Shown here: one piece after another, positions 5,606-8,361 of the stretch
How the letters are laid out: every line of letters starts with the position of its first letter
Position numbering within the stretch: position 1 is the first letter of the stretch
From: a virus
Strand: one strand, 5' to 3'
IMG/VR virus record: IMGVR_UViG_3300020215_000032
Span: 1 to 42,451 of that record
DNA: 42,451 bases
The notes under the pieces: model-generated
What the model was told of the DNA's origin: nothing
Database searches by the model: none
The model's input: the letters and a program-made list of their open reading frames with translations, nothing else
Position numbers and translations under genes: made by a program

Positions 5606-5953
5606 TTAGCTGGCCTTACCGCTGCCGCCACAAACAGAGCAGGGCGGCTCTTTGGTCGAGTACCGCGTTCCATCGTGATGCACGTGACCGGACTCGCCAC
5701 TGCCCTCACATTCAACGCAGTCGGGGGCGCTCATCTCCCACAGCTCAACAGGCGATTGCCCGACGTATTCGCCTTCGTGCATGCCGCCGAGAATCCAATC
5801 TCGGAAACGATCTAAGCGTTCAAGTCTGGCGGCGGCGTCAATCAGGTATTCCGTGCAGGAGCCGTCCTCGGCGAACGCCAACAAGGCGAGCTTCTGACTC
5901 GCACCGATGCCACGCAGGCGTGAGGCGAGCTGCTTGTTCGTGAGGTGGCTCAT
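5606..5953 (-). CDS. DnaJ-type zinc-finger protein, 115 aa
   Basis: The N-terminal two thirds is helical (LTNKQLASRLRGIGASQKLALLAF). The C-terminus contains two CxxCxGxG motifs (CVECEGSGE and CSVCGGSG) separated by HVHHDGTRYS, the pattern of a single DnaJ-like zinc-binding module. Phage proteins of this layout are frequent in early operons, and may act as adaptors. Overlaps the upstream gene by 4 bases. Confidence 0.7.
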   Translation of the reverse strand: MSHLTNKQLASRLRGIGASQKLALLAFAEDGSCTEYLIDAAARLERLDRFRDWILGGMHEGEYVGQSPVELWEMSAPDCVECEGSGESGHVHHDGTRYSTKEPPCSVCGGSGKAS

Positions 5954-6177
5954 GCCGCCACCTTCAAGTAATCGCCTTCGGCGAGATCGACGAGGATCAC
6001 GCCGCTGCGCACATCCCAGTCACGACCACGGAAGCCAGAGAGCGGGGCCGGGAAGTCGATTTCTAGCTCGATGTTCTGGGTGCGCTCGTTCAGGCGGTTG
6101 CTGCGAACCGTGCCCGTGAACTCGACGCCGAGGTAGCGCCCTTTCACTGCGTCGCCTTTCTTTAGGTTCTGGAACAT
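5950..6177 (-). CDS. Hypothetical beta-rich early protein, 75 aa
   Basis: Start ATG at 6177 gives MFQNLKKGDAVKGRYLGVEF. The pattern of alternating hydrophobics with G-rich turns (FTGTVRSNRLNERTQNIELEIDF) suggests a small SH3- or OB-like barrel. It is the second gene of the leftward operon. A longer frame upstream overlaps the first gene and is not used. Function unknown. Confidence 0.62.
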   Translation of the reverse strand: MFQNLKKGDAVKGRYLGVEFTGTVRSNRLNERTQNIELEIDFPAPLSGFRGRDWDVRSGVILVDLAEGDYLKVAA

Positions 6178-6199: not shown

Positions 6200-6370
6200 T
6201 TACTTCCGCTTCGCTGCCAGCCGTGTCTGCAGCAAAGCTGCAGCTGCTCGCTCGTGCGCCTTCTGCGCAGCCTCCATCGCCTTCGCGCGACCTTTGTTAG
6301 AGATAGCGCCGTGAACTGCGGCGCAGACGCTGATGTAGAGGAGGTGCTGTTCGCGCTTGGTGAGGTGCAT
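6200..6370 (-). CDS. First gene of the leftward early operon, 56 aa
   Basis: Small helical alanine-rich protein (MHLTKREQHLLYISVCAAVHG). The ATG at 6370 lies exactly 6 bases after the -10 box of the predicted leftward promoter, so the mRNA would begin at or next to this ATG and be leaderless; no Shine-Dalgarno is visible before it. An ATG 6 codons upstream lies within the promoter and operator and is rejected. The position corresponds to that of N in lambda, but there is no arginine-rich N-like motif at its N-terminus. Confidence 0.6.
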   Translation of the reverse strand: MHLTKREQHLLYISVCAAVHGAISNKGRAKAMEAAQKAHERAAAALLQTRLAAKRK

Positions 6371-6376
6371 GGAAGT

Positions 6377-6418
6377 ATTGGACACCAAATGGTGTAAGCT
6401 GTCAACACCAAATGGTGA
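6377..6418 (-). promoter_or_regulatory. Leftward early promoter PL with operators OL1 and OL2
   Basis: On the minus strand TTGACA (6400-6405), a 17-base spacer and TCCAAT (6377-6382) form a good sigma-70 promoter. Two copies of the operator ACACCA-AA-TGGTGT (6382-6395) and ACACCA-AA-TGGTGA (6405-6418), 23 bases apart, cover its spacer/-10 and its -35. The same operator type recurs three times at 7231-7285, so repressor bound here should shut the whole leftward arm in a lysogen. Confidence 0.88.
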
Positions 6419-6447
6419 AACTGCGGGTGCACGAGATCTCTGGCCAC

Positions 6448-6472
6448 AAAAAACCCGGCGCTGGGGCCGGGT
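6448..6472 (-). terminator. Rho-independent terminator of the repressor operon
   Basis: Read on the minus strand it is a 7-bp stem (ACCCGGC/GCCGGGT) with a 6-base loop followed by six T residues. It sits downstream of the lipoprotein gene and just upstream of the PL operators, separating the repressor transcript from the leftward early transcript. Confidence 0.92.
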
Positions 6473-6497
6473 CCTTGGGTGTATTGCCGAACAGGTG

Positions 6498-6782
6498 CTA
6501 TTTGCAGACGATCATCATGGAGCGGTTGTGCGTGCTACCACCGAAGACGCCGTACTGGGTTCCAGAGACGGCCACGCCCTGCTCGTCACTCTTCTGGATC
6601 ACGTCGTAGCCGTTTTCCTTGCATATCTCTCCGGCTTTCTCGTAGCACAACGACCAATCCAGAGCAGAGCCGCTGCATCCGATCGCATAGCCCTGGCGAC
6701 CGTCTGGAAGATAGACGGCTTTCTGGCTGGCGCAGCTAGCTAGGGCGACGGTGAGAGCCAGTAGGGCGCTTTTGCCTTTCAT
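6498..6782 (-). CDS. Lipoprotein co-transcribed with the repressor (moron)
   Basis: Protein of 94 aa with a lipoprotein signal peptide: MKGKSALLALTVALASC with C17 as the lipidated cysteine. The mature part has the sequence PDGRQGYAIGCSGSALDWSLCYEKAGEICKENGYDV and ends with NRSMMIVCK, with four cysteines that could pair in the periplasm. It resembles small secreted proteins that are widespread in proteobacterial genomes and prophages. It follows the repressor by about 40 bases on the same strand and is closed by a strong terminator, so it should be made in lysogens. A GGGGAGACTCAGG ribosome site precedes the ATG. Possible roles: superinfection exclusion or altered host envelope. Confidence 0.82.
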   Translation of the reverse strand: MKGKSALLALTVALASCASQKAVYLPDGRQGYAIGCSGSALDWSLCYEKAGEICKENGYDVIQKSDEQGVAVSGTQYGVFGGSTHNRSMMIVCK

Positions 6783-6822
6783 CCTGAGTCTCCCCTTGCT
6801 GTTGGGTGTCTATGGGGGGGGC

Positions 6823-7209
6823 TTAGACCGCGACTTTTCGGCGTGTGCCGCGGCGAGCCTGAATCTTCCGAATAGCGGCCAGGGCCTCTCGCTGCTCGTC
6901 CCGGTCAAGGTCATCAATCGTCGATAGGAGCGTGTCTTTGACGACATCCTTTCGAGTGTGGTCGATCAGAAGGGGGCTATTACGGATGTCGAGTTGGCCG
7001 AGTACGAGCCCTACAGCCTGTTCGATCTTCCTGGCGGCCTTTTCCCCGAAAGACTTGCCGCTGCTGGGACGGAGGATGTCACTGAAGTACTGAGGCTTTG
7101 GGTTTTGAGGGTCATGGATTCGCGCGATAGCAGACAGATTGCCGGCGAAATCCCGCTCGATGAGTCGAGCTAGGTTCGCTCTTCGTATGCCGGCCATCGA
7201 GTTTTCCAT
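6823..7209 (-). CDS. cI: cI-like repressor, helix-turn-helix only
   Basis: Protein of 128 aa from the ATG at 7209. Residues about 8-60 (RRANLARLIERDFAGNLSAIARIHDP, then ILRPSSGKSFGEKAARKIEQAVGLVLGQLD) match the Cro/C1 helix-turn-helix pattern including the FGEKAARKIE segment. The rest is helical and basic. There is no S24 peptidase domain, so RecA-driven self-cleavage as in lambda CI is not expected. The frame stays open to 7638, but the ATG at 7209 lies 6 bases after a predicted -10 box and the longer form would cross the operators and the cro gene. Probably represses PL and PR through the five operators. Confidence 0.85.
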   Translation of the reverse strand: MENSMAGIRRANLARLIERDFAGNLSAIARIHDPQNPKPQYFSDILRPSSGKSFGEKAARKIEQAVGLVLGQLDIRNSPLLIDHTRKDVVKDTLLSTIDDLDRDEQREALAAIRKIQARRGTRRKVAV

Positions 7210-7215
7210 GTCCTC

Positions 7216-7245
7216 ATTGTCGGCGGACGAACACCAATCGGTGAA
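7216..7245 (-). promoter_or_regulatory. Repressor promoter (PRM-like)
   Basis: On the minus strand TTCACC (7240-7245), an 18-base spacer and GACAAT (7216-7221) give a moderate sigma-70 promoter. The repressor ATG follows the -10 box after only 6 bases, so the transcript would be leaderless, as for lambda cI from PRM. The operator at 7231-7244 overlaps its -35, as OR3 does in lambda. Confidence 0.6.
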
Positions 7246-7285
7246 TTCTCCATTTGGTGTTGCATTTTCTATCACCGCATGGTGA
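7231..7285. promoter_or_regulatory. Operator cluster OR (three sites)
   Basis: Three 14-bp sites: ACACCA-AT-CGGTGA (7231-7244), TCTCCA-TT-TGGTGT (7247-7260) and TCACCG-CA-TGGTGA (7272-7285). Each is a near-palindrome with 6-base arms and 2-base centre, the same form as the two OL sites. Centre spacing is 16 and 25 bases. The first overlaps the repressor promoter, the other two overlap the -35 and -10 of the cro promoter, so the arrangement is functionally like lambda OR3-OR2-OR1. Confidence 0.88.
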
Positions 7286-7289
7286 TAAT
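7260..7289 (+). promoter_or_regulatory. Rightward early promoter PR
   Basis: TTGCAT (7260-7265), 18-base spacer and GATAAT (7284-7289; 5 of 6 consensus). It drives cro and the replication operon and overlaps the two right-hand operators. The GTG of cro follows the -10 box after 5 bases. Confidence 0.7.
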
Positions 7290-7294
7290 TGGGC

Positions 7295-7543
7295 GTGGAC
7301 TTCAAGACCTTCTGGAAATCACTTACGCCAGCCGACCGAGAGTCGTTCGCAGATGACTGCGAAACGACGGTCGGGCATCTACGAAACATCGCGTACGGCT
7401 GCCGAGAGGCAGCTGAGTCCCTAGCCATTCGCATCGAGAAGCGCTCCGGAGGCGCCGTTAAATGCGAATCGCTCAGATCCGACGTGGATTGGGCGTATCT
7501 CCGTGGTTCGTTGTTGACGACCAAGCGCAAGTGCGCTGGCTGA
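7295..7543 (+). CDS. Cro-like (YdaS-type) transcriptional regulator
   Basis: The frame gives an 82-aa protein from GTG at 7295: a helix-turn-helix core LTPADRESFADDCETTVGHLRNIAYGCREAAESLAIRIEKRSGG followed by VKCESLRSDVDWAYLRG, the C-terminal W-x-Y-L-R signature of YdaS/Cro-type antirepressors. It diverges from the repressor across the operators. There is no ATG; a TTG lies 2 codons upstream inside the -10 box. With PR as drawn, the mRNA begins at the GTG and has no leader. Confidence 0.8.
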   Translation: MDFKTFWKSLTPADRESFADDCETTVGHLRNIAYGCREAAESLAIRIEKRSGGAVKCESLRSDVDWAYLRGSLLTTKRKCAG

Positions 7544-7950: not shown

Positions 7951-8361
7951 ATGAATAACCAACGGATATTCCAGGACGACAAAGAGTGGGAAGCCGCGCT
8001 GGAGGCAGACGTTGCAGCGGCTGGAGGCCCTCAAGTAGTTGGACACATTCTTTGGCCGCATCTGGATCCGATCACTGCTGGCAAGAAGGCGTCCAATGCA
8101 GCGAATCCAAAGCAGCGGCAAGAGTTCACGCCGAAAGAGATCCGAAGGATTAAGAGCCTGGCGCGAGCGGCGGCTGGGCGATCACAGCTTCACGCAGTTG
8201 AATCTGGCGAGCTGGACTGCGAGATCAAGTGGACGACTCTCGAAGAAAAAATCGAGCTGGCGAACCAAGGGCTAGCGGCAGCAATGGAGAGCATGCAGGG
8301 GCAGCTTGCCCAGGTGCAGCGCTGGCTAGCAGAGATCAATAAACAAAGGGCGAATCGATGA
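7951..8361 (+). CDS. CII-like regulatory protein
   Basis: Protein of 136 aa. The segment AAGGPQVVGHILWPHLDPITAGKKASNAANPKQRQEFTPKEIRRIKSLARAAAG resembles the helix-turn-helix region of phage CII/CP76-type regulators (GG-x-x-x-VG-x-x-L-W-P then N-P-x-x-x-x-x-x-x-x-E-x-x-x-I). The C-terminal part is a coiled coil (LEEKIELANQGLAAAMESMQGQL) suited to oligomerisation. First gene of the replication operon after cro, the place of cII in lambda. Call rests on position and sequence pattern. Confidence 0.65.
   Translation: MNNQRIFQDDKEWEAALEADVAAAGGPQVVGHILWPHLDPITAGKKASNAANPKQRQEFTPKEIRRIKSLARAAAGRSQLHAVESGELDCEIKWTTLEEKIELANQGLAAAMESMQGQLAQVQRWLAEINKQRANR

Follow-up and report, generated by a model that had tools for sequence, protein, structure and literature searches.

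A PaaR2/YdaS-type phage immunity switch with predicted leaderless cro and repressor genes and a possible third leaderless start at PL

Introduction

How many of the first genes of a lambda-like immunity switch can be read from transcripts that begin at the start codon itself? The question is raised by a viral sequence of 42,451 nucleotides (IMG/VR record IMGVR_UViG_3300020215_000032; the whole stretch is called the window below), in which a first-pass annotation had placed an immunity region with matched operators and leaderless first genes at all three of its promoters, an arrangement that it called unusual. The lambda cI mRNA made from PRM is leaderless, and lambda cro and N have leaders. 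Leaderless phage genes (lambda cI, PaaR2, PY54) are usually treated as isolated oddities. "Unusual" needs qualifying, however: the PaaR2 repressor of prophage CP-933P was found to be leaderless by RACE and protein sequencing (PMC8630535), and RACE placed the starts of both the cI and the cro transcripts of PY54 at the AUG (PMC4488713). Given these precedents, the window is to be viewed as a variant of known leaderless switches. What appears to be new is a leaderless cro geometry conserved in a YdaS-type family and, possibly, a third leaderless gene.

Results

The switch has the lambda-type layout, with repressor and cro genes diverging over shared operators and a further operator region (OL) at the leftward promoter. 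The repressor gene (6823..7209, minus strand) encodes a PaaR2-like protein of 128 amino acids without an S24 peptidase domain; it has no Pfam domain, and its PHROG repressor matches are weak only. Used as a single sequence, the protein matches PDB entry 7nkv ("phage repressor protein CI") with E=0.0015 over 37 amino acids. In that stretch 7nkv is identical to the repressor (L159) of Evi, a phage of the CP-933P type; the Evi repressor begins MQKKE, which is the PaaR2 N-terminus as reported (PMC8630535). A repressor family profile, which itself includes the Evi sequence, matches 7nkv at 2e-18. The cro gene (7295..7543, plus strand) starts with GTG and encodes a YdaS-type protein of 82 amino acids, matching Pfam YdaS_toxin at 4.8e-5, under the family's curated cut-off. 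The consensus of its family retrieves the Evi Cro at 6e-10, and the Cro profile matches PDB 8c7k at 4e-26. Since the repressor matches PaaR2/Evi and Cro is YdaS-type, the switch is, as judged from its protein sequences, homologous to the PaaR2/YdaS switch of E. coli O157:H7 CP-933P.

Downstream of the repressor lies a small lipoprotein-like gene (6498..6782, minus strand; phrog_5685), a position often taken by genes for lysogenic conversion or exclusion. The interval behind cro where a YdaT/CII-like gene was looked for (7951-8361) gave no Pfam match; its sole PHROG match, phrog_24214, has no assigned function. Another record (IMGVR_UViG_3300021061_000226; L006/L029) contains a 4.8-kb fragment that is identical to the window across the whole switch; a DNA-level search of the switch region against phage and plasmid collections, and a search of Rfam, returned no match.

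The five operators of the first-pass annotation are all present, at 6382, 6405, 7231, 7247 and 7272, and they flank the repressor and cro genes, which supports its description of an immunity region with matched operators. The pattern it had given, ACACCA-NN-TGGTGT, proved too tight: the five sites depart from the consensus ACACCANNTGGTGT by 0, 1, 2, 2 and 3 mismatches. A better core is CACC-N4-GGTG, whose only exact copies in the whole window are those at 6383, 6406, 7232 and 7273; the fifth operator, at 7248, reads CTCC-N4-GGTG. Looser copies elsewhere in the window occur at chance level, the clustering being the signal. The sites, to which no strand is assigned, overlap the predicted promoters. 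OL1 (6382..6395, ACACCAAATGGTGT) overlaps the PL -10 box by its first base and OL2 (6405..6418, ACACCAAATGGTGA) covers the first base of the PL -35; OR3 (7231..7244, ACACCAATCGGTGA) holds the PRM -35, OR2 (7247..7260, TCTCCATTTGGTGT) lies over PR, and OR1 (7272..7285, TCACCGCATGGTGA) runs into the PR -10. Promoter parts are thus supplied by OL2 (PL -35), OR3 (PRM -35) and OR1 (PR -10). The literature searched contained no phage-related use of these operator words.

The putative PL (6377..6405, minus strand) consists of TTGACA (6405-6400), 17 nt, TCCAAT (6382-6377) and 6 nt to the ATG at 6370. PRM (7216..7245, minus strand) consists of TTCACC (7245-7240, in OR3), 18 nt, GACAAT (7221-7216) and 6 nt to the ATG at 7209, and PR (7260..7289, plus strand) of TTGCAT (7260-7265), 18 nt, GATAAT (7284-7289) and 5 nt to the GTG at 7295. 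As sequence, then, a -10-like hexamer does end 5-6 nt before each start codon, as had been claimed, and all three distances fall in the range taken as leaderless (about 5-8 nt). Shine-Dalgarno sequences are absent before the cro start and before that of the first PL gene. At the repressor gene, GAGG stands 2 nt upstream of the ATG; a relative (L013) has GCGCTC there, so that GAGG is not conserved. An in-frame TAA at 7286-7288, inside the PR -10, confines the cro start to TTG 7289 or GTG 7295. GTG is a poor leaderless start in E. coli; the start codon is ATG in 57 of 60 relatives. By consensus the predicted boxes are weak (PL lacks the A at -11; PRM and PR each match 8/12), and a generic sigma-70 scan of the window reported none of PL, PRM and PR. 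One genome alone could therefore not establish them, and the case rests on conservation in relatives.

The L013 locus, whose Cro is 48-49% and whose repressor is 64% identical to those of the window, keeps the three OR sites with their positions and spacings, as well as GATAAT-5-ATG at cro and GACAAT-6-ATG at the repressor. More relatives were collected with two degenerate operator patterns: one describing the OL pair and an intervening TTGA (64 viral-contig and 65 bacterial-genome stretches) and one for the OR triple (16 matches). Among the bacterial matches, a Cro homologue is also present in records of, for example, Paraburkholderia, Variovorax, Rubrivivax, Sterolibacterium and Lysobacterales. 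Counting copies, 80 loci with Cro were identified by profile, and in 71 a divergent repressor adjoins it. The operator pair also recurs without a Cro homologue in Clostridia/Oscillospiraceae genomes (L088, L091, L093-L094, L096, L099-L101 and similar), possibly as the site of another regulator with a similar target. These Clostridial matches, not found by the Cro profile and also devoid of the PL hairpin signal described below, were left out.

For each start, the best promoter within 60 nt was taken by a score that rewards the -35, the -10, their spacing and an extended -10. An earlier score demanding A at -11 had been dropped because it missed common TGTAAT boxes. The -10 of the best promoter ended 4-9 nt before the cro start in 48 of 59 loci, mostly from the operator-pattern set, and before the repressor start in 26 of the 53 genes of that set; the same placement was seen in 9-11% of shuffled upstream sequences (9.5% for cro) and in 11.5% of 600 control genes from the same loci. 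Of the cro genes 8%, and of the repressors 11%, had strong Shine-Dalgarno pairing, compared with 30% of controls; the last figure is likely an underestimate, since control starts were simply the first ATG. The operator-pattern set is not an independent test, as the replacement score was chosen after the TGTAAT boxes had been seen. Because that set had been collected by its operators and the score revised once on it, the test was rerun unchanged on loci collected by Cro protein only. These came from a 7-sequence profile, one of 22 Cro sequences being too divergent for scanning; the search was biased to proteins beginning MDLK, and some contigs are shared with the operator-pattern set. Here 34 of 42 distinct loci, with several different operator sequences, had the leaderless cro geometry, and 2 had a strong Shine-Dalgarno; repressors had the geometry in 15 of 36. 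The lower counts for the repressor are as one would expect from a weak promoter and an uncertain choice of start.

Two readings would remove the leaderless starts of cro and the repressor altogether. Motifs as short as these, and promoter scans of single genomes, are unreliable, so that the boxes might be chance matches in operator-rich DNA; this is most improbable, since the cro geometry recurs across dozens of distinct loci and is 5 to 8 times as frequent there as in shuffled sequences or control genes. Alternatively, the genes might be ordinary leadered ones, with promoters farther upstream, operators within their 5' leaders, and ribosome sites that are weak or unusual. The weakness of the boxes by consensus would suit that arrangement, and cro does have a leader in 10 of the 12 named YdaS-type phages examined (including mEp043, SfV, Evi, 587AP2 and PG1). 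Most loci, however, lack a Shine-Dalgarno sequence, and conservation of the TTG at -35, the 16-18 nt spacing and the fixed distance from -10 to start far exceeds that in controls and extends to loci with other operator sequences; we regard leadered genes as an unlikely explanation. On a poorly resolved Cro tree, the leaderless/leader label needs six changes. The predicted leaderless start of cro is thus strongly supported by conserved geometry and the near absence of Shine-Dalgarno sequences in relatives, and the feature is probably real because it recurs in dozens of diverse phages. For the repressor, geometry and the scarcity of Shine-Dalgarno sequences in relatives give moderate support.

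Among loci with YdaS-type cro genes but very different operators, of TTTAGT or TAGC types (L197-L212, L007-L009), the leaderless geometry is mostly kept. Four loci (L198, L200, L202, L203) have TAAACT 29-33 nt before the ATG and short leaders without Shine-Dalgarno sites.

The first PL gene (6200..6370, minus strand) would encode 56 amino acids, with its ATG at the predicted +1, and is followed by a gene (5950..6177, minus strand) that has GGGAG before its ATG. The product of this second gene, at 75 amino acids, gives a weak but above-cut-off Pfam match to Glyoxalase_8, which is odd for a phage protein of that size. The operator-promoter layout of PL recurs in dozens of contigs, and most relatives have a Shine-Dalgarno leader before their first PL gene. 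An ORF starting 6-7 nt after the PL -10, with no near Shine-Dalgarno alternative, was found only in the window and in L015 (the same contig as L068), L033 and L112, where the ORFs span 42-156 amino acids.

A rival reading is that only cro and the repressor are leaderless, the PL RNA being conventional and the GGGAG-led gene at 6177 the first that it really carries; the ATG at +1 would then simply reflect the pyrimidine-then-A motif that PL starts of the family commonly share. Bases 1-6 after the -10 are mostly C or T and are followed by a purine, chance ATGs at +1 do occur (for example in L017 and L064), and a homologue search with the 56-amino-acid protein finds only a fragment identical to the window. 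These observations, with the usual Shine-Dalgarno-led first gene of relatives, lend the idea some weight. Yet it would leave a leader of about 190 nt, three relatives have ORFs at the same place, and codon usage supports coding in the frame of the 56-amino-acid ORF and speaks clearly against the other frames. We hold a conventional PL RNA to be doubtful, though a good deal less so than leadered cro and repressor genes. A leaderless PL gene is plausible from the sequence but exceptional in the family; since PL is mostly Shine-Dalgarno-led in relatives, three leaderless starts are plausible for the sub-lineage of the window and are no family rule. The prediction of three leaderless first genes is thus strongly supported for cro and moderately for the repressor, and is a plausible exception at PL.

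In those relatives, a pyrimidine-rich arm separates the PL -10 from the expected +1 (positions 7-8, the usual place of the first purine after this arm), and its bases tend to be complementary to the Shine-Dalgarno arm. In 39 YdaS-family PL loci with a strict Shine-Dalgarno match, arms paired better with their own partners than with swapped ones (mean longest helix 5.4 versus 4.0; permutation p about 2e-4, an optimistic value because related loci are not independent). L018, L044, L046, L059, L074 and L077 are examples of covarying regions. Upon folding, mean accessibility of the Shine-Dalgarno sequence was 0.44 in PL-started RNA, 0.15 in read-through RNA and 0.29 with shuffled upstream sequence. 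Read-through RNA should thus hide the ribosome site and PL-started RNA should not, forming a predicted lock. The arrangement resembles those of phage T4 gene e and IS10, in which the ribosome site is hidden in read-through RNA.

Discussion

The favored reading, which we consider likely, is a lambda-like PaaR2/YdaS switch with leaderless Cro and repressor mRNAs and, in the sub-lineage of the window, a first PL gene that is probably leaderless too. From the sites, the geometry, its conservation and the scarcity of Shine-Dalgarno sequences we infer binding, transcript starts and mode of initiation as follows. The repressor would bind the five CACC-N4-GGTG operators; given their placement, it would shut both early promoters through OL1/OL2 over PL and OR1/OR2 over PR, and limit its own promoter through OR3 over the PRM -35. 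Cro, by analogy with CP-933P, would compete for the same sites. The PR and PRM transcripts would begin at the first codon or 1-2 bases from it, with the likely consequence that switch genes are translated from RNA of their own promoter and not from read-through RNA. Early expression may then be tied to 70S initiation, as the first-pass annotation proposed.

In lambda, too, the repressor mRNA is leaderless, as predicted for the window, and repressor and cro diverge over shared operators. Lambda CI is self-cleaving; the window repressor, of 128 amino acids, differs in lacking the self-cleaving (S24) domain. CP-933P (PMC8630535; PDB 7nkv, 8c3k, 8c7k, 8co2) has a homologous repressor and Cro, and shares the divergent layout and operators at both OR and OL. 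Its operators, however, are GTTTAGTAA-type repeats, whereas those of the window are CACC-N4-GGTG; the window shows no counterpart of its paaA2-parE2 toxin-antitoxin genes and has the lipoprotein-like gene behind the repressor instead; and in Evi, a phage of the CP-933P type, a Shine-Dalgarno leader precedes cro, unlike in the window. For PY54, whose repressors were grouped with the N15/lambda kind and which has a single Cro operator, two leaderless genes were reported, not three (PMC4488713). The immB region of N15/phiKO2 differs in its operator motif (T-A-N10-T-A), in that Cro bound only to OR3, and in that OL controls a plasmid replication gene (PMC4997575).

The apparent conservation of the cro geometry despite divergent phages and different operator sequences suggests selection, and its apparent spread over dozens of such phages offers a large natural set for asking why. 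One possible reason is insulation: leaderless genes, and a PL Shine-Dalgarno sequence locked by a hairpin that only read-through RNA would form, would ignore read-through from outside the switch. Shielding from read-through is suggested as the common theme of the leaderless starts and the PL hairpin. More tentatively, and with less than even confidence, translation of the whole switch may be coupled to its own promoters across a widespread phage family, with leaderless Cro and repressor and a PL gene either leaderless or hairpin-locked. In the window, a terminator-like hairpin with a T run (6452..6475, minus strand) also separates the repressor operon from PL, though shuffled sequences yield hairpins of this kind at least as often. 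The PL leaders of L048, L060 and L079 carry, soon after PL, sequences resembling boxA (CGCTCTTTAACA-like), which would fit antitermination.
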